64,000 nucleotides of DNA. It comes from Sycon ciliatum. Lineage: Eukaryota > Porifera > Calcarea > Leucosolenida > Sycettidae. Position 1 is the first letter of the stretch; every line of letters starts with the position of its first letter. The stretch lies in the NCBI RefSeq assembly GCF_964019385.1, contig NC_088643.1:50225395-50289394 (forward strand), written 5' to 3'. Position numbers and translations under genes: made by a program. The notes under the pieces were generated by a model. That model was not told the DNA's origin. It worked only from the letters and a program-made list of their open reading frames with translations, and searched no databases. Positions 1 through 60,801 of this stretch are shown in pieces.

Positions 1-486
1 AGGGGGGGGGGGGAGATCATTACGTCATCCCAGCAGATGTGTGTAGAAGCCACGGTGACTAACTCGTACAACTTCCAGCCCTATACTTCATAAAGTACCG
101 GGGCGGAACCACTTCCTTCGATATCATGGCATGAGGCTGGAAGCGGTACAGGTACTCTCGCCGTGATATTTTGTCAAGTTTTCAAAAATGTGCCATTGAT
201 TAGAAAACGAGTACAGTCCCACGTGGCTATGATCTTTGCTGTGGCTACGGTGCCATTGGTCCTGAAGTAACACAAGCAAAACTTGAGCAGTGACAGTCTG
301 CCCTCTGAGTTTAGTGTTTGAACTCGTTGAGGCCAGGAGTCTACTATTGATAACGTGAGTTTTGGGTAAAATTGGATCTACTGCTAAGCACAGTACAGTG
401 TAGCTGGTCGATAGGCCCATAATGTCACTCACTAGTGTTATTTGTTTTCTGTGTCTGCAGTGGGTTCCAGACCCGGCATGAAGCCA

Positions 487-840
<354 letters not shown>

Positions 841-1199
841 TCTGAGGTGAGGTCTGAGGTGTGTGTGTGTTCTCGTCTCCCCAAGCGCGTTTTGTTTGCC
901 GAGGGACTCAACACAAGGCCCAGACATGGTCCCAAGAAACGTTGGAGAGACATCGCCGCTGCTGATCTGAGTGCTCGGTGCGTGACAGGTGACTGGTACG
1001 ACTTGGCACAGGACAGACGAGACTGGCGCCTCATGTGCAATCGTCCCCGACCGGCTGTGCCAAAGCCTAGAGTGTTAATTTGCGGCTGTGGCAGGGACTT
1101 CCGTTGGCCCAACGATCTAACTCGCAACAGGAAATACTGCAACTCCTGATGCTATCATTGCATGGAGCAATGGGCATCCAAAGGTCCAAAGGTGTATGT
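841..1199 (+). pseudogene. Truncated LINE tail 2: ORF C-terminus plus 3' hairpin
   Basis: A 5'-truncated open frame (stop 1147-1149) resembles the C-terminal part of the LINE protein at 15,027-18,755: PKRVLFAEGL and GPKKRWRDIA correspond to its PKQVLFGSFL and GPRRRWKDCA, and a finger-like CGCGRDF...DLTRNRKYC corresponds to its CTVCGRDF...DMARHKC. Just after the stop is a hairpin CATTGC/GCAATG (1156-1172), then AAAGGTCC repeats and GT-rich sequence. The frame has no start of its own and is a retroposition remnant. Confidence 0.75.
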
Positions 1200-1438
1200 G
1201 TGACCACCTGGCTTGAGAGTTGCCAAGATCGTCCCAGCTGGAGACGAGTTGCAAGTAGCACTCCACCGCCACAGCCCGCTCCTGATCCTCTTCTCTGTGT
1301 CTGTGGACGCCCGTTTCGTCGACAAGGAGACCTGAAACGACATGCCAAGTTCTGCGCTCGTGTTCTCACTTGAACTTTCCGACATTCGCTATCATTGCGT
1401 ACGCAATGGGCAAGATCAAGGTCAAGGTCAAGGTGTGC

Positions 1439-1440
<2 letters not shown>
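1200..1440 (+). pseudogene. Truncated LINE tail 3: zinc-finger C-terminus plus 3' hairpin
   Basis: A second 5'-truncated copy of the same 3' end. The frame encodes CVCGRPFRRQGDLKRH followed by AKFC and stops at 1371-1373. The hairpin CATTGC/GCAATG with loop GTAC (1393-1408) follows, then three AAGGTC repeats and (GT)n. Together with tails 1 and 2 it forms a head-to-tail series in which each copy starts in the GT-rich tail of the previous one. Confidence 0.75.
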
Positions 1441-1486
<46 letters not shown>

Positions 1487-1508
1487 ACGCGTGTGTGCTT
1501 GTGTGTGG
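1441..1508. repeat. (GT)n microsatellite: empty site of the right-arm LINE
   Basis: A GT-rich tract with CGCACGCG interruptions runs without interruption into GGATCCTTACCAGGC. The corresponding right-arm position carries a 4 kb LINE between the two halves of this tract (14,957-14,987 and 19,034-19,070), so this is a pre-insertion allele. Confidence 0.85.
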
Positions 1509-4489
1509 ATCCTTACCAGGCCCGTCGCACCGACTTTGGAGGTGGGCGGCCCTGGAAGGGGGTCCGAGGGTACCCTTTTGGGGAATTTTTTCAAAAATTG
1601 AAGCCAATTGCAAGCATTTCCGGGCATTTGGTGCCATTTCAGTTTAACTACAACGAAAGACTTTTTGATTTTGCAACAAACCGAGAAGACGCTACGATTG
1701 GGGACATGGGTTCTTCATTATCCTCCCCCCGGGAAAATTTCAAAAATTGAAGCCAAATCGGCAAATTGAAGCAAATTTGCAAGCATTTCCAGGCATTTGG
1801 TGCCATTTCAGTGTGTTGTAGTGCAATGAAAGACTTTTTTCATTCTGCATTAAACCACGATCGGGGACAAGGATTCTTCTTTATTTGCCACGTTTGGGCT
1901 GAGCTGCGATCATCGCGCTTTGTTGCAGTGTGCTCCAAAAAAAAAAAAAACGCCGAAAAAGTGGGGCGGCCTCAACCACCCCAGCTGTGAGTATGGGTGT
2001 ATAAAAGAGTACGCTGACTTGAGCACATCAAAGTCACTGAGGTACTGAGACAGAAGATAAACCGCATACCGTTTCTGGCGGAAAACGTTGTTTCCAACTT
2101 TGAATTAGACCTGAACAAGCCATTCTCGATATTAATTTTGTAAAATGAAATGTACCCTTGATCATCATGCACAAGAGCATGCCTCTACCCAAAGTAATTA
2201 ATTGGTAGGCCTGGTTAGATTAGTCTAGAGGCTAGAATCCAGCGCTGCTGCATGCTGCAAGACTGGACTGGAACATCGGGATTTCACGTGGGATACCTGG
2301 CAGGAGATGAGAACATTATTGACGAAAAAGTTAGAAAAAGTTCGGAAAAACCCGTCAGTCTTCACGAATTGGGTGGGTCAAATGTTTTGGAATAGTTATG
2401 ATCCAGCCATGGCCAGGCTGCGCCTTCCGGCTCCGCAAGATCCTTCCAGTATACATGTACATGCAGGCGATTCGCTCTGCATGTGATCATGTTCTGCGGT
2501 TCATTGCTACATTGCAGCACGTCTTACCAGCACTGTTTGCATGCGCCTGCAGGCAAATGGACACAGCCGCCAGGACGAGGACGAAAGTGACACTGCAATG
2601 TATCTGCACCATTCTTTATCACAGTCTTTGTCTTGTTCGCTGCGCACACCTGTCTTCACACTTTTGGTCTTGACTTTCTGCGGCACAGCGCTCCAGGCAA
2701 ACGGTGTTTGATGCCAGGGGAGTAGAATGATGGAGCACCTCCACCGGGCCTATGTTACAAAGTCTTACTGCTAAGTGCTATCTCATGGCGAGAGTACTTG
2801 CGCTGACACGGGAAGCCTTCGCTAGACCACTGCCCTACCAAACGGTTTTCTGTTGCACAACACTGTCACACATGATGCAACACGACACGCAGTCCATGTC
2901 ATTTGCGCTATGGCTTTCACCTTTCGGTGGGAACTCCGGATCAGCCTCAGTGTGTATGGGCTATTTTCTACAGTCTTTAGATCTACCACAAACCGATAGC
3001 TTCTTACCGGTATAAACGTCGATACCCTTCGACGTACAGCTAGTCTTGGCCGTTGTTGCCACCAGTTATGCAGATACCCGACTTTGGGTACGAATGTGCC
3101 ATGGTCTTCCCAGAGCCAGACCATGCTGGATGCGGACGACGCCTCGCTCGGACAGCTGCTCCCAAGCTGGGCCGCCAGAAGGTGATTTTCTTTTCCGACA
3201 GTCGCGACAAAGAATGCTCGTTTGTTGTTGTTGACATTTGGACTGTGTGATCGTGAGAAGCAGCTGGCTGACGTGCTACCGGTCAGATCCGGCAGTCAGC
3301 TATCCGTGTATTATCCTCTCACTGAATCACTGAGTCACAGGCGGCGTTCTCCACCACACAGCTGCTCTGGTCTAAACTAACGACACCCCGGCCCCTTCTG
3401 TTCCGTTATAACGTCGCTTTACACTTGGTGCATAACGAACTCGAATCAAGCTCAGTCAAGGACTACTCAAACACTAGCCCTTTCCCAAAGATGCCATAAT
3501 TTATGCTTTTCGCAACTAACTTACTCATGCTTTTCGCAGCCGTGCCAAAACAAGTGCGAGCTGCTAAAATCGCATCCATATTTTCAGGAAAGGCTCAAAA
3601 GTTGATAACTAGAGAGGTTCTGCACAACGAAAATTCGAACGAAGTTTCGCGACAGGCCTTGCGAAAATGTGTACGAATTTTCGCACGAACTTTGTGTTCT
3701 GCACATTTTCGTAGTTTGCACGCGCCAAGTGCACGTACGACATGACCCAATCTCACGAAACTTCCTACGAAAGTTCATCAGGCGAAGCGCCAGCACCGAA
3801 AAAGAGCCCTAAAAGTTGCACTTTTATTTTCCAAATCCGACCCCAGGCCCGGGAAATTTGAAACTCAGCTCAATATCGCCAAAAAGAGACTATTTTATCC
3901 CTTGCTCACAAGAGCTTCCCTGGTGGTATCGTCTTGTTCCGAGGCAATGTTTGGGAAGGTGCGGGCATTAGCTGCCCTAAGTTTCGCGGAAAGCTCCAAG
4001 CGACATCAATTTCCTCGCTTTCTCGCCAGAGTTTTCAAGACCGACGCAACTCGTCGTCAAAAAGTACTCAGCGTGGATTTCGTGCCGAATTCCGCCCCAA
4101 ACAATTTAGGCTGACCTCTCGCCACCAATCGAACCCACTGATATGTATCTACCTATACACGAGCAATGGTTTGAGCCCAAAGAAGGACAACTTCACAACG
4201 AGCACACTTTCTGAGGGTAATATTTACTATGTGTATCAGTATTAGAACACCATCAAGACGACAAATTGACCAGCAGAAAGACAGAAAGTTGCACTACAAA
4301 TACATGCATACAGCAGCTGTATAAACATAAATAATTGAACAGAAAACTATGTAACTGGATCCCACCAAAAACAGTAAAGCATCCCAAATAGTATGCGCAT
4401 ACACATATACATGAAGGAAGGCTATGTTGCCACCATACACTGGCTACGCACACGGACATCATTCTGGAGAGCTGAGCATCAGCGTGCGC

Positions 4490-8231: not shown

Positions 8232-8777
8232 TACCGTACTGGCAATAATATGTTGCCGCGTAACGCGTAACGCAGGGGGTGCGGCGTAACGCGCGACCAG
8301 GCTAGTGCGACAAATTTTCGTTGAGTTCGTAACGCGCGTCCGGCGGGGTGCGGCGATCTTTTCATTGCAGTTTGCACTGCAAAAAAAGGCTGAAAACTGT
8401 GAAAGCACGTGTACCGCGTGGTGAACAGTTCAAAACTAGACGCAGCAGGAAGTCCTGACCCTCGAAGGCGCATCATTCAGTGGTTGGCGATCTCAATGGT
8501 TTCTTCTTTCCCGAGGTCGTTTTGCACTCTGATTGTTAAAATATACAGTCTTCTATTGATATCGTTGTCGCCCTTTGCCGTCGGGTTTGTAACAGTTGGA
8601 TAGCACCTGAATTTCTGTGCCTTCAATGTGGATGAAAAGAAAAAATGATGCGGCAAAAGCAAAAAAATGATGCGGCAATAGCAAAAAAGTGATGCGGCAA
8701 TAGGAAAAAAAGGACTGCGGCAATATAGAAACCTGTGTAACGGCTCCTGTGCGGCAACATATATTGCCAGTACGGTA
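8232..8777. mobile_element. MITE-like element with TACCGTACTGGCAATA ends
   Basis: It begins TACCGTACTGGCAATA and ends with the reverse complement. The interior is unusually rich in CGCGTAACGCG-type motifs and has a short tandem series of an AAAAAATGATGCGGCAATAGC unit. It shares most of its content, inverted, with the neighbour at 8971-9319. No coding capacity. Confidence 0.7.
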
Positions 8778-8970: not shown

Positions 8971-9319
8971 TACCGTACTGGCAATATATATGGTCGCAGT
9001 GAGGCCATGAAGCGTTACATTGGCACATGTTTGCCGCACGCAGGGCGTTACGTGCAAAGTCGCACAGGAGCCGTTACACAGGTTTCTATATTGCCGCAGT
9101 CCTTTTTTTGCTATTGCCGCATCACTTTTTTGCTATTGCCGCATCATTTTTTTGCTATTGCCGCATCATTTTTTGCAAACTGCAATGAAAGGATCGCCGC
9201 ACCCCGCCGGACGCGCGTTACGAACGCAACGAAAATTTGTCGCACTAGCCTGGTCGCGCGTTACGCCGCACCCCCCCTGCGTTACGCGTTACGCGGCAAC
9301 ATATATTGCCAGTACGGTA
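8971..9319. mobile_element. Second, inverted copy of the TACCGTACTGG element
   Basis: It has the same termini as 8232-8777 and the opposite internal orientation, with the tandem GCTATTGCCGCATC unit at 9110-9175. The flanks continue the palindrome outward: TTGATTGCAACATCTTC near 8947 is answered by GAAGATGTTGCAATCAA near 9330, so this copy sits inside a larger inverted duplication. Confidence 0.7.
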
Positions 9320-10487: not shown

Positions 10488-12308
10488 GTAGATCAACGGT
10501 AGATATAGATACGTTATGTGCATTCCCTTTTGAGTGTACTGAAATGATGGAAGATGCATACCGTCTACTTGGAAGTTGCGGTGTGTAAATACATACATAT
10601 GTACATGTACAATGTAAGTATTTCTATTAGTTGTGGTTCACAGCAGGAAGGAAGGGGTATACCGTACTGTATAGGGTTCGCTGTCGCCGCAGTTCAGCTA
10701 TTTCTGCTACTTTTCGATGCAAAAGAACTCTCTCATTTTTGTTGCGATGTTATCAACTTTTGTTTGAGCCTTTCCTGAAAATATGGATGCGATTTTAGCA
10801 GCTCGCACTTGTTTTGGCACGGCTGCGAAAAGCATAAGTTGCGAAAAGCATAAATTATGGCATCTTTGGGAAAGGGCTAGTGTTTGAGTAGTCCTTGACT
10901 GAGCTTGATTCGAGTTCGTTATGCATCAAGTGTAAAGCGACGTTATAACGGAAAAGAAGGGATGTTGTTAGTTTAGACCAGAGCAGCTGTGTGGTGGAGA
11001 ACGCCGCCTGTGACTCAGTGATTCAGTGAGAGGATGATACACGGATAGCTGAGTGCCGGATCTGACCGGTAGAACGTCAGCCAGCTGCTTCTCACGATCA
11101 CACAGTCCAAATGTCAACAACAACAAACGAGCATTCTTTGTCGCGATTGTCGGAAAAGAAAATCACCTTCTGGCGGCCCAGCTTGGGAGTAGCTGTCCGA
11201 GCGAGGTGTCGTCCGCATCCAGCATGGTCTGGCTCTGGGAAGACCATGGCACACTCGTACCCAAAGTCGGGTATCTGCATAACTGGTGGCAACAACGGCC
11301 AAGACTAGCTGTACGTCGAAGGGTATCGACGTTTATACCGGTAAGAAGCTATCGGTTTGTGGTAGATCTAAAGACTGTAGAAAATAGCCCATACACACTG
11401 AGGCTGATCCGGAGTTCCCACCGAAAGGTGAAAACCATAGCGCAAATGACATGGACTGCGTGTCGTGTTGCATCATGTGTGACAGTGTTGTGCAACAGAA
11501 AACCGTTTGGTAGGGCAGTGGTCTAGCGAAGGCTTCCCGTGTCAGCGCAAGTACTCTCGCCATGAGATAGCACTTAGCAGTAAGACTTTGTAACATAGGC
11601 CCGGTGGAGGTGCTCCATCATTCTACTCCCCTGCCATCAAACACCGTTTGCCTGGAGCGCTGTGCCGCAGAAAGTCAAGACCAAAAGTGTGAAGACAGGT
11701 GTGCGCAGCGAACAAGACAAAGACTGTGATAAAGAATGGTGCAGACACATTGCAGTGTCACTTTCGTCCTCATCCTGGCGGCTGTGTCCATTTGCCTGCA
11801 GGCGCATGCAAACAGTGCTGGTAAGACGTGCTGCAATGTAGCAATGAACCGCAGAACATGATCACATGCAGAGCGAATCGGCTGCATGTACATGTACAGT
11901 CTGTATCGGCTATAGCGTACCCTTTTGATTTCCGTGATTTTATCACTATAGCCGATGCATCACTATGCGATACGATCGATTTTTTTCTTTTTTCGATCGA
12001 CACATGAAAGGCAAGGAAATACTTCCAGCATGGCGTTTTGACAAATGAGCATTCATGCTGCATAGTTGACAGTGCCCGCATTTCCATAAAAAAATTCTGT
12101 CATGTATATGTACATGTATCACTATAAAAATAAGCAACGTGAAGAAAGTAAAAGCATAGGGCCTTTGATATTATTGCTACATGTATTTTATAGTTATCAC
12201 TATAGCCGATAATAATATAGTGTGTTATGCATGTTTTGATTCTTTGTTGCCATCATAATATCCGATATATCATTACATCCGATAATATTGGTTATAGTGA
12301 TATTTTAT

Positions 12309-12432
12309 AAGAAAGGGTTTGCTCCCCACACCGGAGCTCGCGCTATTCCGCCGACTTTACTTGACACTTGACAAGTGTCAAGTAAAGTCGGCGGAATAGC
12401 GCGAGCTCCGGTGTGGGGAGCAAACCCTTTCT
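12309..12432. repeat. Palindrome at the start of the 479-bp array
   Basis: The first 60 or so bases of the array unit (GTCAAGTAAAGTCGGCGGAA through GGGTTTGC-type sequence) are present as an inverted copy immediately to the left, centred on ACTTGACAAGT near 12,368. It would fold into a near-perfect hairpin and suggests snap-back synthesis or an inverted partial unit. Confidence 0.85.
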
Positions 12433-12674
12433 TACAAATCATCGCCGAAGTCGCAACCACTACTTCGTATTGTTGTGCCCAGCGCGGGCTTGCGACTAGT
12501 TGGTTTGGAGGTGACAGCGTTGCGAATGACCGAGGGTCCTCAACGTCTGGTCTCACCGTCCAGGAGCGACACTGACTCACGCTGCTATCTGGTGTTCACG
12601 AGGTGTTTGTCGCGCTGGAAATGGAGCGTCTCTGTAAGTTTGTATCCCTGGTGATGTTTGTGCCTGGAGAGCAC

Positions 12675-12682
12675 TATATAAG
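12675..12682 (+). promoter_or_regulatory. TATA-box-like motif in the satellite unit
   Basis: TATATAAG lies 39 bases before the ribozyme in unit 1 and recurs at 13,154 and 13,633. It sits in the loop of a possible hairpin GAGCAC/GTGCTC. Promoter function is inferred only from the motif and its position. Confidence 0.35.
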
Positions 12683-12720
12683 TGGTGCTCTTCAGGCACA
12701 ATCTTCCTCAGCCTACTCAA

Positions 12721-12766
12721 GCTCAACTGATGAGGGGTGAATTCCCCGAAACACTGTGTATTGAGC
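12721..12766 (+). ncRNA. Hammerhead ribozyme (type I), unit 1
   Basis: A self-cleaving RNA motif. Stem I is GCTCAA (12,721-12,726) paired with TTGAGC (12,761-12,766); the core CTGATGA is 12,727-12,733; stem II is GGGG/CCCC (12,734-12,737 and 12,744-12,747) with loop TGAATT; the core GAAA is 12,748-12,751; stem III is minimal (CA/TG or CAC/GTG around a tiny loop, 12,752-12,758); the cleavage triplet GTA ends at 12,760. All invariant hammerhead core bases are present. Predicted cleavage is between 12,760 and 12,761. A very short stem III is typical of the metazoan type I ribozymes found in tandem repeats and retrozymes. Confidence 0.9.
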
Positions 12767-13199
12767 AGGGAGTGGTGCTTTCTTGCAGGTTTGCCGAGTC
12801 GAAGGTTCGATGGACTTCTCGTGTGCTCTGGATGGCAGTCGTGAGTCAGTCAAGTGTCAAGTAAAGTCGGCGGAATAGCGCGAGCTCCGGTGTGGGGAGC
12901 AAACCCTTTCTTACAAATCATCGCCGAAGTCGCAACCACTACTTCGTATTGTTGTGCCCAGCGCGGGCTTGCGACTAGTTGGTTTGGAGGTGACAGCGTT
13001 GCGAATGACCGAGGGTCCTCAACGTCTGGTCTCACCGTCCAGGAGCGACACTGACTCACGCTGCTATCTGGTATTCACGAGGTGTTTGTCGCGCTGGAAA
13101 TGGAGCGTCTCTGTAAGTTTGTATCCCTGGTGATGTTTGTGCCTGGAGAGCACTATATAAGTGGTGCTCTTCAGGCACAATCTTCCTCAGCCTACTCAA

Positions 13200-13245
13200 G
13201 CTCAACTGATGAGGGGTGAATTCCCCGAAACACTGTGTATTGAGC
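13200..13245 (+). ncRNA. Hammerhead ribozyme (type I), unit 2
   Basis: An identical copy 479 bases downstream of unit 1, with core CTGATGA at 13,206-13,212 and GAAA at 13,227-13,230. Cleavage is predicted after 13,239. Cleavage here and in unit 1 would release a 479-nt monomer with ends suitable for ligation into a circle. Confidence 0.9.
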
Positions 13246-13678
13246 AGGGAGTGGTGCTTTCTTGCAGGTTTGCCGAGTCGAAGGTTCGATGGACTTCTCG
13301 TGTGCTCTGGATGGCAGTCGTGAGTCAGTCAAGTGTCAAGTAAAGTCGGCGGAATAGCGCGAGCTCTGGTGTGGGGAGCAAACCCTTTCTTACAAATCAT
13401 CGCCGAAGTCGCAACCACTACTTCGTATTGTTGTGCCCAGCGCGGGCTTGCGACTAGTTGGTTTGGAGGTGACAGCGTTGCGAATGACCGAGGGTCCTCA
13501 ACGTCTGGTCTCACCGTCCAGGAGCGACACTGACTCACGCTGCTATCTGGTGTTCACGAGGTGTTTGTCGCGCTGGAAATGGAGCGTCTCTGTAAGTTTG
13601 TATCCCTGGTGATGTTTGTGCCTGGAGAGCACTATATAAGTGGTGCTCTTCAGGCACAATCTTCCTCAGCCTACTCAA

Positions 13679-13724
13679 GCTCAACTGATGAGGGGTGAAT
13701 TCCCCGAAACACTGTGTATTGAGC
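13679..13724 (+). ncRNA. Hammerhead ribozyme (type I), unit 3
   Basis: A third identical copy, 479 bases after unit 2, with core CTGATGA at 13,685-13,691. The following partial unit stops before the ribozyme, so the array holds three ribozymes. Confidence 0.9.
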
Positions 13725-14987
13725 AGGGAGTGGTGCTTTCTTGCAGGTTTGCCGAGTCGAAGGTTCGATGGACTTCTCGTGTGCTCTGGATGGCAGTCGT
13801 GAGTCAGTCAAGTGTCAAGTAAAGTCGGCGGAATAGCGCGAGCTCTGGTGTGGGGAGCAAACCCTTTCTTACAAATCATTGCCGAAGTCGCAACCACTAC
13901 TTAGTGATATTTTACTGGATAAAATACGTTTTGCTTTTGATATTTCGTACCAATATCACTGTAGCCGATATATTCTTATATCCGGTCACTCTATAGCCGA
14001 TACAGACTGTATACTGGAAGGCTCTTGCGGAGCCGGAAAGCTCAGCCTGGCCATGGCTGGATCATAACTATTCCAAAACATTTGACCCACCCAATTCGTG
14101 AAGACTGACAGGTTTTTCCGAACTTTTTCTAACTTTTTCATCAATAATGTTCTCATCTCCTGCCAGGTATCCCACGTGAAATCCCGATGTTCCAGTCCAG
14201 TCTTGCAGCATGCAGCAGCGCTGGATTCTAGCCTCTAGACTAATCTAACCAGGCCTACCAATTAATTACATTGGGTAGAGGCATGCTCTTGTGCATGATG
14301 ATCAAGGGTACATTTCATTTTACAAAATTAATATCGAGAATGGCTTGTTCAGGTCTAATTCAAAGTTGGAAACAACGTTTTCCGCCAGAAACGGTATGCG
14401 GTTTATCTTCTGTCTCAGTACCTCAGTGACTTTGATGTGCTCAAGTCAGCGTACTCTTTTATACACCCATACTCACAGCTGGGGTGGTTGAGGCCGCCCC
14501 ACTTTTTCGGCCGTTTTTTTGTTTTTTTTTGGAGCACACTGCAACAAAGCGCGATGATCGCAGCTCAGCCCAAACGTGGCAAATAAAGAAGAATCCTTGT
14601 CCCCGATTGTGGTTTAATGCAGAATGAAAAAAGTCTTTCATTGCACTACAACACACTGAAATGGCACCAAATGCCTGGAAATGCTTGCAAATTTGCTTCA
14701 ATTTGCCGATTTGGCTTCAATTTTTGAAATTTTCCCGGGGGAGGATAATGAAGAACCCATGTTCCCAATCGTAGCGTCTTCTCGGTTTGTTGCAAAATCA
14801 AAAAGTCTTTCGTTGTAGTTAAACTGAAATGGCACCAAATGCCCGGAAATGCTTGCAATTGGCTTCAATTTTTGAAAATTTTCCCCAAAAGGGTAACCTC
14901 GGACCCCCCTTCCAGGGCCGCCCACCTCCAAAGTCGGTGCGACGTGCCTGGTAAGGATCCACACACGCGCACACACCCACACACACC

Positions 14988-17900
14988 TGTCCTGTCCTGT
15001 CCTGTAGAGTCACTGCCGCAAAAGGGTCACGTGATCCCATCACTGGGAAACTTGAGAAGAGAGAGAGAGAGAGGACACGACGCTCGATGACGCTCCAGGT
15101 GCACGGGTAGTCGCATCCGCTTGCCGCATATGCACACGTGCTGGAAGGCTGAGCGCTCCTCTGCTGTTGGTCTATGCGCCACCCTTGAACAGCGATGCCT
15201 TCCCCGTCCCCGGACACCGCGAAAGCAGCGACCACACCTGTCACAATGCGCGGCACAACATCCCTCCGCCGGTGCCGTCGCTCCGGTAGTTCCAGGTGGC
15301 ACTGCGGCATCCACCGTTGAGGCACACACATGCCGGACCAAGCCACCGCGGCTTCTCAGCCACCGCCCACACCGCCCGCACTGACTGGCGCCCCGCTGCT
15401 CAGACACAGGCTGCGCACGCTCCTCCAGACACTTATGCCGAGCCATGTCTCCTTTCCGTGCAAAATCCCGTCCGCATACCGTACATACCACTCGGGGCGG
15501 AGGCTCAGGCACATTGTCAGGCTCTTGGTAGGTGCTGCGCCACTCCGCGCGAGACTCACATGCAACATCATACCATGATGCCTCCACGCCACGGGCACGT
15601 AGATCTCGGACAGCACAGTCCTTCCATCTGCGGCGTGGGCCATGTGCTGGGCGACGCTGCAAGAAGGAGCCAAACAGTACCTGTTTTGGGATGCGGTTGT
15701 CCGGCATCCGCGCCACATGCCCCAACCACTCCAACCGCCGATGTGCAATTTTGTCTTTAATCGTCTCGGAGTCTCCCCAGCGCACCAGCAGCTCTTCGTT
15801 GGTGATGTGTTCGTCCCACATCCGGCTTCGAGAGACCCGGAGGATGGATCGGATGCACCTCATGCTGAAGGTTGAGAGCTTCTGCAGGTCATGCTGAAGG
15901 GGCGTCCAGCACTCAGAGCCATACAACAGCAGGGACAGAACGCAAGCATTGAATACGCACCGCTTGGTGTGCATCAGCAGATGTGGATTGGAGAATACAG
16001 ACTTCCGAAGAGCACCGCAGGCCCTGGAGGCTTGGGCAATCCTTGCGGCGATGTCCCGGGACGAACGGCAACCGCTGTCCACTACAGAACCGAGGTATTT
16101 GAAATGCGGTACGCATTCCACCTCCGCTTGACCAAGTTGGAGGGGAGCGCGGTCAGTAAGCGTGATGCCGGGGCCAACAACTACAAACTGAGTCTTCGTT
16201 GCACTGATGGTCAAGCCGAATCCCGACGCCACCTCGTGAAGACAGCACAATGCTGCCCCCGCTCCAGACCGAGTCGTAGCGAATAAACAAGAGTCGTCAG
16301 CAAACTGGGAATCTGTTAGGCAATGGTGTTGGTCGTCACGGCGGGGTTTACGGTATAAATCGCTGTTGTATGCTGAGCGGAGCTCGAAGCCAACCCCGTC
16401 AACTCTCCTGGCGCGGTGTTGCCACTGGGTCATCACGGCCCACATAAAGATAATAAAAAGGACCGGCGCCATAGAGCACCCCCGGCGAAGACCATTGCCA
16501 ATGCTGAACGGGTCTGATAATATGTTGTTGAACTGCACCGATGCTGACATGGGGTCGTGGAACGACCGGATGATGTTGATAAGCTTTTCTGGTACTCCCG
16601 CACGGCCGAGGACCTGCCACAGACACCCCCTGGGCACTGAATCATAGGCCTTCTTCAGGTCGATAAACACAAAAAATCCCTTGGCCTGATGTTCGATTGA
16701 CTTTTCCATGAGCTGTCGGACGGTGAAGATCATGTCAGAGCAGCCACGCCCTCGCCGGAACCCGCATTGGGACTCAGGGAGGAATTCCTCTGCGACTACC
16801 TGCAGCCTTCTCTGAAGGACACCCGCCAAGACCTTGCCGACCACATCCAGCAACGCAATGCCCCGCCAATTGTCGCACTGCGACAAATCTCCCTTCTTTG
16901 GAATGGGGATGAGGGTAGCATCCGCCCACTCCCGCGGAACGCTGCCATCTCGCCACACATCTCCAAACAGCTCCATGAGCTTGTTGTTGAGCTCCTCGCC
17001 ACCGAACTTTAGCAACTCTGGCTGTATCCTCGATGAACCAGCAGCGGTGCCATTGCGAAGTCGAGAAATGGCCTTGGAGATCTCATGCATGGTTGGTGGT
17101 TCCTCAAGGCTCGACACTACAGGTCGCTGCTCAACGCAAGCCATGATATCGGGGTTGTACGAGCTCTCTGGGTTCAGGACAGATGTGAAATGCCTCTGGA
17201 ACCGCTTGCATTGATCCTCAGTCGACTGGCACAGGTTTCCATTCTCGTCCTTAATGGCGGAAGTCTTGCACGGAGTTAATCCCTCACATGCAGCGTGGAT
17301 AGCATGAACGCATTTCCAGACGACTGCCCCGTTGAAGCGCGCCTCTGTTGCCTCCTGTGCCTTATTCAAAATCCAAGCCTCTTTGGCATTTACAACGGCT
17401 GCGCGCGCCTGCGATCGAGCAGCCCCGAAGCTGGCCCAATACGTGTCGCCCCTCTGCTGACCGTGGGCAAGCCACTCCGCGTAGCACTCATTGCGGGCGC
17501 GCAGAAGGGGCTGTATGGTTGCAGAGTTGTCATCATACCAGTCGGCCTGACGGAGTTCGCTCGGGCCCAATACATCAGCGGCTGTGGCAACCACGGTATT
17601 GCGCACATGGGTCCACTTCTCCCCAATGCTACCATCGCTGCTCCAGCAATCTCGCAATCCAGCAGATAAAGCGGCACGATACTTGTCCGCGGTGGTCACG
17701 CAGCGCGGGGGGCGACGTCCCACATCGTTGACGTCTTGTAACGTGGATGCGCAGGAATCCGATTGATCATGCTCGGCCACCGCCTTACTCCGCAGCTTGC
17801 CGACATTAAATCGGCGCCCCCGGCTCGCTCCACGTCGGGCAACCCCCACCGGGCGATGCGGGAACTCAAAGACTATACAAAGCAGCTGGTGGTCACTGCC

Positions 17901-19027
17901 ACACTCAGCACCACGAACAACGCGCACGTCCCTGCAAAATCGCCGATGATCCTGACGCATCAAGATATAGTCGATGCAGTGCCACTGCAGAGAGCCGGGG
18001 TGCTGCCACGTCCGCTTGAAGATATCCCGCTTGGGGAACCAGGTGTTGCAGATCCACAAATTATTTATTGCTGCAAACGACAGTAGCTCATCTCCAGAGG
18101 AATTCAACTGTCCAAAACCATGCATGCCGCGCACACCACTCCAGCCATCGTCAGCTGTTCCTGAACCCACACGGGCGTTGAAGTCTCCAAGCAGAATACA
18201 GCAGTCCCTGTCAGGAACGCCAGCTATTACCTCCTGCAACTGTTCGTAAAACTGATTTTTGCTGGCACGCGGAGCTGCATAAGTCGGAGCATACGCACTG
18301 ACTACCGTCACCCATGCGACTTCTCCCCCACGCAGGGCGAATTTGAGACGTGCAGTGACAAGACGAGGGCCCACAGTCCGCCAGACCGAACCACCATTCT
18401 TCCACGCGTCTGTTGCAAATTTATTGAGTGCCAGGGCGACTCCTTCTCCTCGTCTGTTGCCCGGAGCTCCATCGCCAGGCACGGGGCGACCCGAACACAA
18501 GATAGTAAAACCGTCAACGACATAAATGTCATCGCCGAACCAGTGTGTCTCCTGCAATCCAGCCGCCGCCACGCTCAACCTGCGCAGCTCGGCAGCAACA
18601 CGATGACATTTCTTGTCCTCTGCTACTCGGCCAGAAACGCTCGCCGTAGCTACGCCGCCACTCCTTTCCACAAGGGAGCGAACATTCCACGACCCAAACG
18701 TCAAGCAGCGCCGTCCCTCTCTCCCACTCTTCTCCCTCTCCTTGACGTACTTCATAGCTTTTCGGAGCTGGATGGAGATATTCCACTCGGGGGCTCGTCA
18801 CACCACCGCGAGTGGCGACTTCGGGCGCAGCAAGAGGTGGCGGTATCAAAAAAACTCGCCTCGTCCTCCTGCTACGTGGCTCCCGTCGTCGGCAGCTCAC
18901 TGTCTACGTACTGGCCCTGGAGACAACCCTCAAGGGGTCGCTCCAGGCCTCTCTTTCGCCCAAAAGTACTCGAAAAACAAGAAAAAGTCAGGAGCAGAAA
19001 AATTTCAAACTGCCTCCTTGGGCAGCT

Positions 19028-19033
<6 letters not shown>
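14988..19033 (-). mobile_element. Full-length non-LTR retrotransposon inserted in (GT)n
   Basis: A 4.05 kb element with a 5' UTR of about 280 bases, a single 1242-codon ORF and a short 3' UTR that ends in ACAGG repeats running into a GT tract. Both ends abut GT/CA repeat: CA repeat at 19,034-19,070 beside the 5' end and CA-rich sequence at 14,957-14,987 beside the 3' end. The left arm has the uninterrupted repeat at 1441-1508. No poly-A tail is seen. The same 3' terminus (GGCAGTG, then TC, ACAGG and CAGG, GTGTG) is present at 4490-4690 and about 21,285. Confidence 0.9.
15027..18755 (-). CDS. Non-LTR retrotransposon polyprotein: APE endonuclease, reverse transcriptase, zinc fingers
   Basis: An intact 1242-residue ORF with no frameshift or stop. 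The N-terminal apurinic-type endonuclease shows GSWNVRSL (about 21-28), QETHW, LLGDFNARVG, IDYILMR and SDHQLL, so its catalytic residues are present. A linker of about 300 residues is followed by a reverse transcriptase with QCGFRRGRG, FIDLKKAYD, NGLRRGCSMAPVLF and the catalytic FADD. A thumb/connection region follows (YGSECW, RRLEWLGHVARM). The C-terminus is an array of four fingers: three of the form C-x2-C-x12-H-x-C (CTVCGRDF...RHKC, CGRCGRWL...RHVC, CDRCGRCF...RHRC) and one CICGKRM...RHRASC. There is no separate ORF1. The element would nick target DNA and copy its RNA by target-primed reverse transcription. I cannot assign the clade. The intact frame suggests recent activity. Confidence 0.93.
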   Translation of the reverse strand: MKYVKEREKSGREGRRCLTFGSWNVRSLVERSGGVATASVSGRVAEDKKCHRVAAELRRLSVAAAGLQETHWFGDDIYVVDGFTILCSGRPVPGDGAPGNRRGEGVALALNKFATDAWKNGGSVWRTVGPRLVTARLKFALRGGEVAWVTVVSAYAPTYAAPRASKNQFYEQLQEVIAGVPDRDCCILLGDFNARVGSGTADDGWSGVRGMHGFGQLNSSGDELLSFAAINNLWICNTWFPKRDIFKRTWQHPGSLQWHCIDYILMRQDHRRFCRDVRVVRGAECGSDHQLLCIVFEFPHRPVGVARRGASRGRRFNVGKLRSKAVAEHDQSDSCASTLQDVNDVGRRPPRCVTTADKYRAALSAGLRDCWSSDGSIGEKWTHVRNTVVATAADVLGPSELRQADWYDDNSATIQPLLRARNECYAEWLAHGQQRGDTYWASFGAARSQARAAVVNAKEAWILNKAQEATEARFNGAVVWKCVHAIHAACEGLTPCKTSAIKDENGNLCQSTEDQCKRFQRHFTSVLNPESSYNPDIMACVEQRPVVSSLEEPPTMHEISKAISRLRNGTAAGSSRIQPELLKFGGEELNNKLMELFGDVWRDGSVPREWADATLIPIPKKGDLSQCDNWRGIALLDVVGKVLAGVLQRRLQVVAEEFLPESQCGFRRGRGCSDMIFTVRQLMEKSIEHQAKGFFVFIDLKKAYDSVPRGCLWQVLGRAGVPEKLINIIRSFHDPMSASVQFNNILSDPFSIGNGLRRGCSMAPVLFIIFMWAVMTQWQHRARRVDGVGFELRSAYNSDLYRKPRRDDQHHCLTDSQFADDSCLFATTRSGAGAALCCLHEVASGFGLTISATKTQFVVVGPGITLTDRAPLQLGQAEVECVPHFKYLGSVVDSGCRSSRDIAARIAQASRACGALRKSVFSNPHLLMHTKRCVFNACVLSLLLYGSECWTPLQHDLQKLSTFSMRCIRSILRVSRSRMWDEHITNEELLVRWGDSETIKDKIAHRRLEWLGHVARMPDNRIPKQVLFGSFLQRRPAHGPRRRWKDCAVRDLRARGVEASWYDVACESRAEWRSTYQEPDNVPEPPPRVVCTVCGRDFARKGDMARHKCLEERAQPVSEQRGASQCGRCGRWLRSRGGLVRHVCASTVDAAVPPGTTGATAPAEGCCAAHCDRCGRCFRGVRGRGRHRCSRVAHRPTAEERSAFQHVCICGKRMRLPVHLERHRASCPLSLSLLKFPSDGIT

Positions 19034-19069
<36 letters not shown>

Positions 19070-19070
19070 G
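19034..19070. repeat. (CA)n at the LINE 5' junction
   Basis: The remaining half of the target microsatellite, adjoining the element's 5' end (GCAGTAAGCTGCC on the minus strand) and continuing into the arm sequence AAGCACACCTTGACC. Confidence 0.9.
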
Positions 19071-19672
19071 CACACCTTGACCTTGACCTTGATCTTGCCC
19101 ATTGCGTACGCAATGATAGCGAATGTCGGAAAGTTCAAGTGAGAACACGAGCGCAGAACTTGGCATGTCATTTCAGGTCTCCTGGTCGACGAAACGGGCG
19201 TCCACAGACACAGAGAAGAGGATCAGGAGCGGGCTGTGGTGGTGGAGTGCTACTCGCAACTCTCAAGCCAGGTGGTCACACACACCTTTGGACCTTTGGA
19301 TGCCCATTGCTCCGTGCAATGATAGCATCAGGAGTTGCAGTATTTCCTGTGGCGAGTTAGATCGTTGGGCCGACGGAAGTCCCTGCCACAGCCGGTCGGG
19401 GACGATTGCACATGAGGCGCCAGTCTCGTCTGTCCTGTGCCAAGTCGCACCAGTCACCTGTCACGCACTGAGCACTCAGATCAGCAGCGGCGATGTCCCT
19501 CCAACTTTTCTTGGGACCATGTCTGGGCCTTGTGTTGAGTCCCTCGGCAAACAGAATGCGCTTGGGGAGACGAGAACACACACACACCTCAGACCTCACC
19601 TTAGACATGCCCATCGCAGAAGCGATGATAGCGAACAGCTATGTTAGACATAGCAACTTGTGCTGGGATTAC
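19071..19672 (-). pseudogene. Mirror copies of the nested LINE tails
   Basis: Right-arm counterparts of the three tails at 772-1440, with hairpins at 19,100-19,115 (loop GTAC), 19,305-19,321 (loop TCCGT as read on +) and 19,612-19,627 (loop AGAA as read on +). The finger frames are present but diverged by substitutions and stops relative to the left arm. The stems are intact in both arms. Confidence 0.75.
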
Positions 19673-19673
19673 A

Positions 19674-19707
<34 letters not shown>

Positions 19708-20352
19708 TGGTTGGTGTCCTTGGCAGTAGCCTGGTGATAATATTCCCTGGTTCCGACTGCACAGCCCCCCCCCCCCCTCTGGCTTCATGCCGGGTCTGGA
19801 ACCCACTGCAGACACAGAAAACAAATAACACTAGTGAGTGACATTATGGGCCTATCGACCAGCTACACTGTACTGTGGTTAGCCAGAGTTGTACTAGATC
19901 CAATTTTACCCAAAACTCGCGTTATCAATACTAGACTCCTGGCCTCAACGAGTTCAAACACTAAACTCAGAGGGCAGACTCTCACTGCTCAAGTTTTGCT
20001 TGTGTTACTTCAGGACCAATGGCACCGTAGCCACAGCAAAGATCATAGCTACGTAGGACTGTACTCGTTTTCTAATCAATGGCACATTTTTGAAAACTTG
20101 ACAAAATATCACGGCGAGAGTACCTGTACCGCTTCCAGCCTCATGCCATGATATCGAAGGAATTGGTTCCGCCCCGGTACTTTATGAAGTATAGGGCTGG
20201 AAGTTGTACGAGTTAGTCACCGTGGCTTCTACACACATCTGCTGGGATGACGTAATGATCTCCCCCCCCCCCCTCTCTATAAATAATATTATTGTCATGC
20301 TACATCCTATAAATTAATTAATTGTGGTCTCTAACTCTCTATTGTAACTTTT

Positions 20353-20484: not shown

Positions 20485-20613
20485 AAATTTGTAAATGGCT
20501 GTGTTGGAGTTTGCGGACAATTAGAAAACCTCTATTGTACCAGTAAAACTAATTCAGTTGGGTCTTGGAGGTTAGTTTACATCAGTTTGTGTGTTGCTAT
20601 TGACTTTGCACAG

Positions 20614-30098
<9,485 letters not shown>

Positions 30099-31110: not shown

Positions 31111-31310
31111 CATAATGTCTTAATGATAATACTACATAGGTCAGTGAAGAAATAATGTCTTAATGATAATACTACATAGGTCAGTGAAGAAATAATGTCT
31201 TAATGATAATACTACATAGGTCAGTGAAGAAATAATGTCTTAATGATAATACTACATAGGTCAGTGAAGAAATAATGTCTTAATGATAATACTACATATA
31301 TGGTCAGTGA
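31111..31310. repeat. 40-bp minisatellite, five copies
   Basis: The unit TCAGTGAAGAAATAATGTCT and its continuation TAATGATAATACTACATAGG repeats at an exact 40-base period (31,141, 31,181, 31,221, 31,261). The copies are almost identical. Confidence 0.95.
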
Positions 31311-32544
31311 AGAAAGAGGATGGGGCATGTGCAGAGCAGAGCAGCAGTGCAGGCTCAGCACTACACCTGGCATCCTGCCCGTGACCAGCCATCACACCTA
31401 TCTGTAACATGTACATGTACCGGTATGTGCCTTCCAGCAAACAACATTGCGCTGAGCGTTCATGCACTATTTTACGACTTGTAGGTGCCACCTGACTTGC
31501 TATAATTATATAATAATTATACTTTTTGGAAGATGCGCCATTATGTTTCCCCCCTTTTTTTGCTACAACAGGGTGAAGTTCACTATCTGCTAGCCATTCT
31601 ACATTATCAACCTTCACTGGCGAGATCCTGATGATCGAAACAGCTGCTGTCTGAAGGAGCAGAGTACCAACTGAAGTGTCGTTTTGCTGATGGTGTGCAG
31701 TGGCAACGTGTTGAAGTCGGCCGAAGAGCGCAGCGGTGTGGTGTGGTGGTTGATAAGAATACAATTATTATTTTTTTATGAATATAGTCCACTGTCATGC
31801 CAGTCTGTACAGTGTTGGGTGGTTAGTCCACTGTCCAGTCCACTGTACAATGCAGAGTCTGGATAAGTTACTAAGGATAATCTCCCAGTGATTGCGTCGT
31901 AGCAATAAACTCTGAGTAGAGACTGACTGGGATTTCCACTGGACCCTATGATATTATTATGTGTGAACACAATGAATTCTTCGCTTTGTACCAGCTTTAT
32001 AATTTGTAATGTTCTGAGAATTCGCAAACTCCATTGCAGCCGTTTATTTTACACCTTTAAAACTAGGGGTGACATGATTACACTTTTCAACTATCGGTTA
32101 ACCTACCCTTGTACCGATTCGATTATCGAGTATGATATCGATTATGATATCGATTACTGCATCCTAGAAATCGTCGCGCCAGACCAGAACAAAGTATGCC
32201 GTGTTGACACATACACATGTACAATATACACACGCATATGCAGATAAACCGCGTACTCTTACACAGTGCAGTGGCACATCACATATGCGGGTGCAGACAG
32301 TCATTTATTTATTTATTTGTTTTCACAGCCCTACTGGAAAACATATGGATAACAAAAGAAACGAGGAAAAGAACAAAGTACAGTATCTAGTAGTGCCGAA
32401 CATGACATTCTTTTGATTCTTGCCGACTTTTTTTAGAATCGCGTAATCGAAACAGACAGCGTAATCGAAATCGTTTCGTTGTAATGATCGATTAGACGGA
32501 TAATCAATATAATCATTTCAGCCCTATAATTAAAACAATCTTTC

Positions 32545-41156: not shown

Positions 41157-44100
41157 TCAAACTCCGGGGCTGGTTCTCAATCGGAATTTGTAGCGCCATG
41201 TGGTCAGTGTAAACAGTCCTTTGCCAAGGAGAATAACACCAACCAGCGAGAAGAAGAAGTAGTGGACGCCGCCGGGTCCTGAGTCATGGTAGAATGTCGA
41301 CGCCGAGTAGGACACTAGCAGAGCCATCAGGCCGGCGCTCAGCAAACCGGAGATGCCAGACATTGTGTACACCAGGGCGATGCACAGGCCTTTCATTGTC
41401 TTCGGCGACTTGGCATAAGCGAATTCCAGGGCTGGACACGAAGAAGTGTGTAAGTGTGTGTGCAAAGACCACATGCACACACAGAAAGAACAATGGTGTC
41501 AAACACATGCCCCAGAAAGACCATCACTCTACCCAGTTGATCAGACATTAACGCACACGATGTTTACAATGCCAACATCACGGGCAAAACAGCCCAAATG
41601 TGGTAATATTAGCAGTGCTTTCAGCCAGGTTTTTGTAGAAATATGAGGTTTTCTTTATAAATCCCATCTCTCTGACGTTCACACGTCTCTTCAATACTTT
41701 ATGATCTACTCCATGCCCGTTCATCTGAGGAGAACTTTCCCCTTTGACTGCATTTGCTGACTTGGTGCATCAAGTCTCAAAATTGCACAGAAGAGCACAA
41801 CAATTATCCGCTTTTTCCAGAATGGACATAGTAAACGTCTTTTAAATTACGTTCTACCACGTCGCCCTTCAACAGATTTCCAGTTTCGAATGACCTATTG
41901 TGAGAACTTTGAAATTCGCAAAAGCTGCAACCTCTGATGTACTATTTGTGTGTGGGGGGGGGAGGCAATAATCATCATGCTATACCCCCCCCCCCTCCCC
42001 CCCCCCACACACACCCCACCCCAAGAATGTGCACGTCTGCATGGGTGTTCTGTGGGGCTTCTGCAACAGCAGAGATAACAGAGACCCGTATAATTACGTG
42101 CAGGGTTTCTCTTCTTGTGGTGGGGAGTATACTGTACGTGTCCTGCCTGAGCAAACGCTTTTAAAGTCACAAGTAATACAACACACGGATGGCAACAGAT
42201 ACTGACTACTGACTACTGACTCATGAGTCAAGATAGAACAGCATTCCCACTCACCGGATATGTAGACAAGTGTCTCTGCAACCCCTGATAAGATATACTG
42301 GGGTAGCTGCCAGAAGATAGGCAAGTTGGAAGCAGTATGGTTGTGGTTGAAAAGCACCGGGTCGATAATTGTCGTTTGGTTCCAGCGGTCAGGCTTGCGA
42401 CGCTGCATTTCGACAACGGCAGCGCACAGCACGCTGAGCGCCGCCACGATCATGCCGATTCCCATCCGCCTGAAGAGGGTAATGCGCCAGCGTGCTAAGC
42501 GCTCCAGACGCGGGTACACCACGCCGTGAAACACCGGTATGCACACCACAATGGACAGGCAGCTGACGGCGGCTATTGTACCGGACGGAACGAACGGCTT
42601 CTGCAGTGACGGGCCCAGCGGGGTGTCTTCATCTCTTGGTATCACTGGCTTCATCAGAGTTCCCTGGGCAGTGAAAGTAGTGATCGTCTGCACGTGTCAT
42701 CAACAAGCAATAGCATAACGATACAGGCAGATTTTAAAAACTAAAATAACACGGCATGTGCTCATATAAATTAAAAGTGCCGAGTGTAAGTGATCATGTC
42801 CGGTATCCAATTCTTTTAGTCCTCAAATCAGAACACTCTCACGCGGTATCACACTGCCGGCTGAGTTGATCAAAGTAACTATGGTAACTCTAGTAACAGT
42901 TAAAAATTATTTTTAAAGTTATATATCAATCGTCTGTGCTCTATCCAAAGTGGACGGGGCAAACCGAGGCCACTTTCATTGTGAACGTCCTTGACACTGC
43001 TTTAGCCCTTGACGCCTTAGTTTTGTCATTGCCATGCTCACTGGCGAGAGTGACTGATGGAGATTAGCACATACATGTACATAAGTCACATGCTTATGTT
43101 GTCTGATGATTGGTTTTTGCCATGAAACTCTGAGTTACAACAAAAAACAGCCCTATATACTTCCTTTTGTGTACCTCTTGCGTAAGTCACATGCACGCAT
43201 GTACTGGTATAATCTGTGATCGTTGGCAGGGGTGACAAAGGGAAATGCGCACATGATTGTATAAGTAGTCCCATGCACGGCGCATGCAGTGCATTGTACC
43301 TGTGACATGATAGTGTAAGTAGTTCCATGCACGGCGCATGCAGTGCATTGTACCTGTGACATGATAGTGTAAGTAGTCCCATGCACGGCGCATGCAGTGA
43401 ACTGTACCTGTGACATGATAGTATGAGTAGTCCCATGCACGGTGCATGCAGTGCATTGTACCTGTGACATAATCACACTGTAGAAGAGCATGGGAATCAG
43501 TACCAGCAGCAAATTGTAGAAGTTGCGCGCATCCACCACATCATTGCTGGAGTGCGTACCTCCGTGCTCAGTATCAGCATATGAGAGAAAACCAGTCCAC
43601 TTCTTGCACTTGGCCAGTGTTTCTTCCGTAGTGCTCATGCGCCTCGCTCTGGGCTCGGGATGCAGCCGTCGCCGCTGCTTCCGCCACACCCGAAAGGCAT
43701 CGAGATAAACACTGAACACCTGCACAATGCCACCCTCATCTGTCAGATGCTGCGTAGAAAAGAGAGTACGCTTGCAGCAGTGTAGCAGAACAATGGATAG
43801 TCCATACGACACAAACACTGGCATGAATCCAACGAAGAATCCACAGTTGACCTGAAAGAAGGACACTAAGCTCATATTGATCAACGCCGACATGTTTATC
43901 CACCAGTAGTACAATGGGAAGAACTCTTTAGCTTTCTGCACAGTTTCACCACGCCGCCAAAACTGATCCATGCCGAGTACAACAATAGATCCACGTATGG
44001 CAGCCATTCCCAGGCCGACGAGTACCAAACCGAGCAGCACCAGTACTTGCAGCATGGTTCTCCTCTTCGCGTTCGGCATGCCAGTTTGGCTAGCGATGGT

Positions 44101-44535
44101 GCTGCCGCTCTCCTGGAAGTAGGTCACACCGGCCGAACACAGCATTGACGCAGCACCCAGCAGCTGCAGGGCCAGGCCCATGTGTAGCATAGCGTACCGA
44201 CTGCACTTGGTGTCCGTTAGCGCACCAGTCACAACTGACAGGACCTGTGGAATATTTGCGACGAATAATTCAGCCATGTTGATCTGCGCAGGAGACCACT
44301 CCAATAGGCCATGATACTCCAGAAAAAACCCTAGATTCGTCAGCAAGCCCTCAGATATTGACAGCGCAGAAATCAGAATCACCCAATTAGACGGATGCCA
44401 GTTCCACCGGTGCAGGAACGACTTTGTCGTTTTTCCACTTCCAGCAGCATGCTGCTCGCCTTCATCTTGACTGGTGAAATTATGTACCGTAGATCTCGCT
44501 GAGTTTAGAAGGGGAGTACTCTCTGATAGCGACAT
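41157..44535 (-). CDS. SLC15/POT-family transporter, gene A
   Basis: Three exons: 44,535-43,462, 42,687-42,255 and 41,431-41,157; phases 0 and 1 join exactly to 593 residues. The protein belongs to the proton-coupled oligopeptide transporter (PTR2/SLC15) family, nearest in layout to the peptide/histidine transporters A3/A4, and should be a 12-helix membrane protein. Family features include GLGMAAIRGSIVVLGMDQF (the conserved G-DQF loop), FFPLYYWWINMSALI, LPIFWQLPQYILSGVAETL and ALEFAYAKSPKTMKGL. The ExxER motif of helix 1, used in proton coupling by many family members, is not present: the site reads ISEGLLTNLGFF. Exon 1 starts with a cytoplasmic segment ending SESTPLL-type, with a possible dileucine sorting signal near residues 3-10. 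Its donor lies in a 54-bp minisatellite. It is tandem with the laminin-G gene upstream and related to genes B and C. Confidence 0.92.
43247..43468 (-). repeat. 54-bp minisatellite that duplicates the gene A splice donor
   Basis: Four units of 54 bases span the exon 1/intron 1 border. Each repeats ATGTCACAG|GTACA(A/G), giving candidate donors after 43,462, 43,408, 43,354 and 43,300. The unit is 18 codons long and stays open in the frame of exon 1 through every copy. Confidence 0.9.
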
Positions 44536-60210: not shown

Positions 60211-60801
60211 TGGCCGAATACTAACACTAAGTAACAGTATTGTTTCATATGTCATGACGTCAGTATTCATATGTCATGACGTCAGTATTCAAGTCATTGT
60301 CTAATGATTTCGTTGCAGAGATGCAGGATAAATGGAGGATACTTTGGTTACTGTTGCAATTTGGTTTTTGACAACCAGGCATACCAATTCTCAATGCTAC
60401 TGCTGCCTCTTCTCTTGTTATGATTGTCACTTTTACTCTTGTTCTTGTTGGTGGCGATGGCGGCGGCGTTGTTGCTGCGGACACTCATATCACATCTGAT
60501 TCTGCACCCCAACGCGCCCAGCAATAGATGCTGTTGGCCAATATCAGTTATTCCGGGGTGAACTCCAATGCTAGACATGCCGAAAAATTACCATTTACGA
60601 AAGTGTGCCGATGGTATCAATAATTCAATATGTTTCGGAAATGGGTACTTCATGCAGTTTAAGTCCACTTTCAAAAGTTTGCAATGTTATAGGTAATACT
60701 TTTGGCATATACATGACATGATGTCACATTTTGAAAGATGTTTATTTTAAAGGGGAAGTTAAGGCAAAAATCAAAATTTCACCAGTTGTAGTCTTCGGGG
60801 T

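Follow-up and report, generated by a model that had tools for sequence, protein, structure and literature searches.

Penelope-type insertion ends on a dispersed hammerhead-ribozyme element of the sponge Sycon ciliatum

The ribozyme array and its insertion site

The 64,000-nucleotide stretch of Sycon ciliatum DNA analysed here (contig NC_088643.1, hereafter the window) carries a hammerhead-ribozyme array at 12308-13901. The array contains three 479-bp units, which start at 12372, 12851 and 13330, and then an incomplete fourth; the three differ pairwise at 1, 1 and 2 positions, and the repeat finder TRF reports 12372-13902 with a period of 479 and 99% matches. Position 12372 is taken as unit phase 1 throughout. 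Every unit holds the succession GCTCAA / CTGATGA / GGGG-TGAATT-CCCC / GAAA / ACA-CTG-TGT / A / TTGAGC, in which stem I consists of two 6-bp parts, inner and outer, separated by an internal loop, stem II pairs GGGG with CCCC, and stem III is minimal with only 2 bp beyond A15.1-U16.1. A descriptor specifying the core, at least 5 bp of stem I, at least 3 of stem II, at least 2 of stem III beyond A15.1-U16.1, and UH gave exactly three matches on the two strands of the window, namely the three unit ribozymes, and none in 150 dinucleotide shuffles. All three units (3/3) thereby show the CUGANGA..GAA core, A15.1-U16.1, H17 and three helices open at stem I that define a type I hammerhead.

The original prediction, made from this DNA alone, had described three near-identical units of 479 bp, a complete hammerhead in every one of them, and a kinship with metazoan hammerhead elements. 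These points are borne out. The monomer pairs strongly with itself: as a 479-nt circle it folds at -192.6 kcal/mol against -160.0 ± 6.6 kcal/mol for 100 shuffles, with 70.6% of its nucleotides paired. The unit has a GC content of 53.0%, and its longest open reading frame (ORF), read round as a circle, spans 44 codons, as befits the non-coding tandem units of metazoan non-LTR (non-long-terminal-repeat) retrozymes. The ATG within the ribozyme was considered as the start of a Penelope-like element (PLE) ORF and dropped, as an ATG is part of any CTGATGA and the frame extends over only those 44 codons. The TATA box predicted upstream of the ribozyme is present in every unit as the sequence TATATAAG, although it sits inside a 44-bp palindrome (Table 1).

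The predicted fold of the ribozyme is that of a dimer. Cofolding of two ribozyme copies (-56.9 kcal/mol) yields the pairs of a double hammerhead, with stems III and I formed between copies and stem II within each copy. Likewise, in a 601-nt two-unit transcript the pair probabilities of stem III are 0.89-0.96 between units and 0.00 within a unit. A two-unit transcript is thus predicted to fold as a double hammerhead via the palindromic stem III, and self-cleaved monomers of 479 nt would be expected.

The array had been labelled a satellite starting at 12371, and neither label nor start holds. It is one dispersed insertion of a mobile element, 12308-13901, not satellite DNA: target-site duplications flank it, one arm is inverted, and its ends are fixed. 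It begins with a 64-bp inverted copy, outer phase 63, lying head-to-head with the direct units, and the 13-mer of the target-site duplication occurs only twice in the window. Rfam microRNA-like matches at 12333-12408 correspond to the palindromic junction between the two arms. The insertion lies within a terminal-inverted-repeat element that is missing, at 2452-2455, from an inverted duplicate of this locus with 97% identity, and the nested ribozyme insertion is the younger of the two. Within the window no empty paralogous site was found for the inner insertion; the empty site near 2452 belongs to the outer element. The duplicate is part of a large inverted duplication, 1-3609 / 10749-20274, piecewise 89-98% identical, which carries the terminal-inverted-repeat element in one arm only.

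Table 1. Features of the insertion and its units (window coordinates)
Feature	Position	Strand	Basis or remark
Target-site duplication, left, 13 bp, TAGTGATATTTTA	12295-12307	.	exact repeat of 13902-13914
Target-site duplication, right	13902-13914	.	
Inverted arm, 64 bp, phases 479 and 1-63 reversed; outer end is RNA-3' site A, without tail	12308-12371	-	
Direct arm, three 479-bp units + 93 bp; outer end is RNA-3' site B, with tail, phase 93	12372-13901	+	
Enclosing terminal-inverted-repeat element, CAGTCTGTATCGGCTATAG ends, TA duplication	11897-14009 (approximate)	.	limits judged by eye
Hammerhead ribozyme, unit 1	12721-12766	+	descriptor, folding; predicted cut 12760/12761, after GUA
Hammerhead ribozyme, unit 2	13200-13245	+	descriptor; predicted cut 13239/13240
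Hammerhead ribozyme, unit 3	13679-13724	+	descriptor; predicted cut 13718/13719
Hammerhead with outer stem I part (CTACTC 12713-12718 / GAGTGG 12770-12775)	12713-12775	+	paired in predicted dimer
Reverse transcription start site A, ~phase 61-63	12432-12434	+	end mapping
Reverse transcription start site B, ~phase 93-99	12464-12470	+	end mapping
Near-palindrome, 44 bp, TATATAAG (12675) at centre	12658-12701	+	20-bp hairpin z -7.4; blastn self-inverted matches
Further copies of the 44-bp near-palindrome	13137-13180 and 13616-13659	+	
AC-rich tail stem-loop CGAAG..CTTCG, phases 75-96	12446-12467	+	one per unit; shortened at the insertion's right end

A high-copy family of clonal insertions

A search of the genome (538,412,230 bases in 313 contigs) for the exact 46-nt ribozyme returned 2,636 matches (1,358 + 1,278 by strand), and none for the reversed control. 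Among the first 100 of these matches, taken unselected, opposite-strand neighbours at most 1.5 kb apart stood in the order -+ in 16 cases and in the order +- in none, same-strand spacings were mostly 477-480, and 34 of 59 clusters contained a single exact ribozyme. For closer study 37 insertions were used, that is, the one in the window and 36 others, the best of 40 scored among 1,160 first-look candidates. Of 101 family copies, 94 have an intact ribozyme in which the core and every pair are preserved.

The units of an insertion, in both arms, nearly always share one clonal sequence. At 11 polymorphic positions, unit pairs with a minor allele were concordant in 110 of 118 comparisons within one strand of an insertion and in 119 of 124 across its two strands, compared with 1,968 of 14,399 between insertions.

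A member of the same family, L043 (C1:50191412-50192838 region), lies some 34 kb before the window; it is exceptional in having two A-type ends and mixed alleles, and perhaps reflects two events. Hammerhead patterns were also sought in viral contigs, with 0, 0 and 2 matches. The two, on the minus strand of IMG/VR contigs L001 (6867-6898) and L002 (2824-2853), were rejected as related arrays, being single type I hammerheads with an ordinary, longer stem III.

Two internal 3'-end sites, usually one on each side of an insertion

The thousands-strong family had escaped the original prediction, and so had the Penelope-type ends of its insertions, which are the main result of this work. The outer ends of the arms, which correspond to RNA 3' ends (n = 65), fall at phases 55-72 in 31 cases, at 88-112 in 32 and elsewhere in 2. 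Hence 63 of the 65 lie in two phase classes, ~34 nt apart, that together cover 9% of the unit and define the reverse transcription start sites A and B (Table 1). Two opposed arms are found in 28 of the 37 insertions, 26 of them in a simple -...+ arrangement and two (L017 and L032) with extra short pieces, which were kept as classified by the script. One A and one B end occur together in 23 of the 28 two-armed insertions; counted over the 26 in which both ends were classified, the binomial chance of 23 mixed pairs is 4.4e-5 at one half. Two internal 3' ends, with a tail on one of two opposed arms, are the mark of PLE-type integration.

Duplications of at least 10 bp flank 29 of the 37 insertions. 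Away from trinucleotide repeats they were found in 13 of 18 insertions, as against 1 of 306 mismatched left/right pairs, and they agree with the target-site duplications of more than 4 bp that characterize retrozymes. As to the targets, 19 of the 37 insertions lie in or beside trinucleotide repeats, compared with 265 of 7,400 background positions, and elsewhere the flanks are 66% AT vs 52%.

The lengths of the arms bear on the template. Of 65 arms, 54 exceed 190 nt and so run past the cut site, and 35 exceed 669 nt and pass it twice; the inner ends are scattered, and only one of the 65 lies within 5 nt of the ribozyme cut. The longest arm reaches 2,126 nt, and many remain below one unit. Consequently, the ribozyme cut site does not stop copying, and since the arms run past it the template is not the cut linear monomer. 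A circle and an uncut multimer would both fit, and arms of less than one unit, present in many of the source insertions, would favour the circle.

Penelope-like elements in the same genome

Among 150 of 944 places that were scored, the GIY-YIG domain exceeded its cut-off at 13. At two loci GIY-YIG passes the curated cut-off within a long frame, of 807 codons in L061 and 749 in L060, and both loci show opposed PLE copies; in L060 the reverse transcriptase family RVT_1 stays below its cut-off (27 of 29.6 bits), with a YIDD motif judged by eye. Relatives of P0121 include three Sycon proteins, with identities of 51%, 40% and 53%, the last over 16% of the query. No relative of the PLE protein was found in the PDB.

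The 3' ends of the PLE fall on ACCGCTACTTCGT, which is identical at 12 of 13 nucleotides to unit phases 85-97, and no other ungapped alignment between the unit and the 200-nt PLE 3' segment is as good. The element thus shares its 3'-end motif with a PLE of the same genome, a short agreement of limited weight alone. In 19 PLE windows, tail-bearing by choice as the query ended at the tail, all 19 copies reach the end motif, 13 with CTACTTCG and 6 with a variant (one base off in five, two changes in one). Past the motif 18 of the 19 enter differing flanks, as judged by eye, and L069 enters the 421-bp tandem unit; in L067 and L075 the end lies in TAA repeats. Where the tail is missing, as in two copies (L061/L058 and L055), the PLE stops 34-37 nt further upstream. 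The 48-nt tails of the PLE and of the unit both form hairpins with CUUCG on the 3' side, at -8.8 and -5.5 kcal/mol. The PLE's own CTGATGA..GAAAC motif fails the full-hammerhead descriptor and does not cofold as a double hammerhead, and is here termed hammerhead-like only.

In L066 (1-1501) the 421-bp units are ORF-less, tandem and 98.5-98.8% alike. About 305 bp of each, hammerhead-like core and tail end included, are 96-99% identical to the PLE. PLE terminal parts therefore become ORF-less tandem elements in the Sycon genome.

Proposed mechanism and alternatives

With a probability of roughly 0.85, the element is a non-autonomous, retrozyme-like hammerhead element mobilised by PLE machinery. 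As best read, it resembles a retrozyme in how it works and a PLE in how it integrates; it is not filed as a PLE because it has no ORF, and none encoding a reverse transcriptase and GIY-YIG endonuclease lies within 12308-13901. We lean towards an RNA circle as its usual template. The fuller picture, in which a PLE enzyme makes repeated turns of one RNA circle produced by the ribozyme, probably as two enzymes at two start sites of the same RNA, one for each nicked target strand, stands at about even odds. In the favoured scheme, tandem 479-bp units would be transcribed, and the hammerheads of neighbouring units are predicted to pair via the palindromic stem III ACACUGUGU and to be cut as a double hammerhead, yielding 479-nt monomers that, by analogy with known retrozymes, may close into circles. 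The element RNA would be used in trans by a PLE reverse transcriptase/GIY-YIG endonuclease. To judge from the ends, both strands would be primed by staggered nicks in DNA that is AT-rich or made of trinucleotide repeats, the nicks usually lying 12-14 bp from each other. Copying would start at the fixed internal sites A (~phase 62) and B (~phase 96), normally one per side, and the two cDNAs would converge, pass the cut site, often more than once, stop variably and join head-to-head. The expected product is a duplication and two opposed arms, one with a ~34-nt tail and one without, with a clonal unit sequence in each insertion.

A number of observations weigh against this account. Transcription, cleavage and circles are all steps that we infer, and linear multimers transcribed from a clonal array would also account for the clonality and the long arms. 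The pairing of one A with one B end has its exceptions (both B in L017 and L038, both A in L043, B with an unclassified end in L032 and L036), nine of the 37 insertions have a single arm, and five (L036, L042, L043, L045, L046) contain mixed alleles; moreover, the choice of the best-scored loci favours young copies. The motif shared with the PLE is only 13 nt long, and 10 of 2,000 random 39-mers from L061 match the unit somewhere, so that its force lies in its position. Of the 19 PLE windows sampled, 2 have the end in trinucleotide repeats, vs 19 of 37 insertions for the element. As for the ribozyme, Rfam, applied to the window and two smaller stretches, gave no hammerhead model at gathering score or at E of at most 10, the very outcome that the original prediction had named as one that would refute it. 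On its own, the 70-nt motif is no more stably folded than shuffled sequence (z -1.0), the hammerhead fold of the monomer (-19.5 kcal/mol) is surpassed by the best fold (-23.1 kcal/mol), and with more flanking sequence the tail stem-loop becomes weak (pair probability 0.02-0.46). Variation in the ribozyme is low, 22/6,546 vs 350/36,203, and similarly low in other stretches of the unit; selection on the ribozyme was considered and rejected, as the low variation is not ribozyme-specific. We do not regard the missing covariance-model match as fatal to the hammerhead identity, because stem III is so short and the motif pairs as a dimer, and because minimal PLE-type hammerhead motifs have been sought with RNAmotif in the literature (PMC7229834).

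As an alternative, the array may be a solo array of pseudo-long terminal repeats (pLTRs), the 479-bp unit being the terminal repeat of an unseen autonomous PLE whose ORF is lost, and the element a miniature PLE, not an independent retrozyme; we place this a little short of an even bet. The layout of the unit is that of a PLE pLTR, with a TATA box, the ribozyme 52 nt on and the reverse transcription start tail 220 nt on; the equivalent distances in the 421-bp unit of L066, where PLE pLTRs do form ORF-less tandem units, are 42 and 144, and the relatives of P0121 indicate that other PLE families exist in Sycon. However, the pLTR of the one PLE family compared has no similarity to the unit beyond the ribozyme core and the 13-nt tail end, and no ORF was seen between unit copies at the 37 loci, with flanks of ~2 kb only and without a systematic ORF search. 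This reading and that of the circular template both overlap with mobilisation of a retrozyme-like element by PLE machinery. A linear multimeric transcript of one clonal array could also serve as the template in place of a circle, a tentative proposal whose odds fall clearly below one half. Clonality is equally expected from through-transcription of an already clonal array, unprocessed RNA is the main substrate of the Anolis PLE in vitro according to PMC11167929, and a C/T difference at phase 38 is common to unit 3 and the partial unit 4 of the window, not units 1-2. Yet two independent mutations could explain that change, a C-to-T at CpG, and many arms are below one unit despite the maximum of 2,126 nt, so that repeated linear copying would shorten the arrays.

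Mobilisation by a long interspersed nuclear element (LINE), through target-primed reverse transcription with twin priming, is improbable. Twin priming also yields inverted 5' parts, and LINEs are present (e.g. the 1256-aa ORF at 15027-18797). In twin priming, however, both pieces derive from one RNA with one 3' end, whereas here both outer ends are RNA 3' ends at two fixed internal sites, one per side, and the end motif of the element is that of the PLE. Spread as satellite DNA by unequal exchange, with the hammerhead carried along, would account for head-to-tail units that are 99% alike; it is hardly credible given the dispersed insertions, duplications, opposed arms and fixed outer ends, and given the clusters with a single exact ribozyme.

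Comparison with known elements

Like the metazoan non-LTR retrozymes described in PMC7229834, the element consists of non-coding tandem units with type I hammerheads, has target-site duplications and a self-paired monomer, and is present in thousands of copies. Unlike them, the Sycon unit measures 479 nt, has 53% GC and a weak palindromic stem III; the sizes of ~150-450 bp and GC below 50% given in that source are descriptive ranges, and the unit lies outside both. Closer in this respect are the satellite-like retrozymes of newt and axolotl in the same source, with a very short stem III, a palindromic loop and cleavage expected mainly as a dimer, although their units are 330-350 bp. The Sycon unit has a TATA box, whereas retrozymes seem to lack promoters in the account of PMC7761336.

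The likeness to PLEs concerns the ends above all. In PMC11167929, PLE reverse transcription starts internally at two sites, and both strands of AT-rich targets are cut and extended, while PMC3846280 reports opposed pLTRs with an optional 31-bp tail, a 9-bp duplication and a TATA box in the pLTR. The Sycon element has in common with the PLEs of these two sources a TATA box, a minimal hammerhead (as in other PLEs), duplications, an AT-rich target and a 3'-end motif, together with two start sites and a 30-40-nt tail on one of two opposed arms. It differs from PLEs in having no reverse transcriptase/endonuclease ORF and in being unalignable with the examined sponge PLE pLTR except for the core and tail end. 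The 421-bp unit of L066 is also ORF-less and tandem, with a hammerhead-like core and the same tail end, and is unlike the 479-bp element in that 305 bp are nearly identical to the PLE.

These findings bear on the question of who moves metazoan hammerhead retrozymes, for which PMC7229834 names PLEs as candidates and PMC11722881 both PLEs and LINEs. The former calls the PLE a 'strong candidate' and proposes it without showing it; the Sycon insertion ends are of the PLE integration type. Further comparison drew on the reviews PMC7761336, PMC4918200, PMC11722881, PMC6431247 and PMC8490949. In the open-licence PMC literature we found no report of such an element in Sycon or of such ends on any retrozyme. 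A high-copy family here displays the PLE end signature on most copies examined, beside PLEs with a matching end motif, and the two start sites, one per side, make the mechanism testable as two priming sites, two nicks and one RNA. If the circle reading is true, the insertions would provide direct evidence from a genome that hammerhead circles are spread by Penelope machinery, and the PLE, the 421-bp pLTR array and the 479-bp element would represent successive grades in one genome.

Other features of the window

The LINE-type ORF of 1256 aa at 15027-18797 (minus strand) comprises an endonuclease, a reverse transcriptase and a zinc-finger-like C-terminus; it is 99% identical to a Sycon ciliatum protein over 94% of the residues searched and looks recently active. 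A self-inverted stretch of ~760 bp, 90% self-complementary, occupies 60801-61561. Tandem repeats are found at 31112-31315 (40 bp), 43251-43470 (54 bp) and 8640-8725 and 9089-9174 (22 bp), the last two arrays being inverted copies of one another. Exons of POT-family peptide transporters (PF00854), apparently in several copies, lie at 43153-44580 (-), 55117-55914 (+) and in nearby ORFs, and a C-type lectin domain and a laminin G ORF at 20604-21302 and 48053-49528, respectively.

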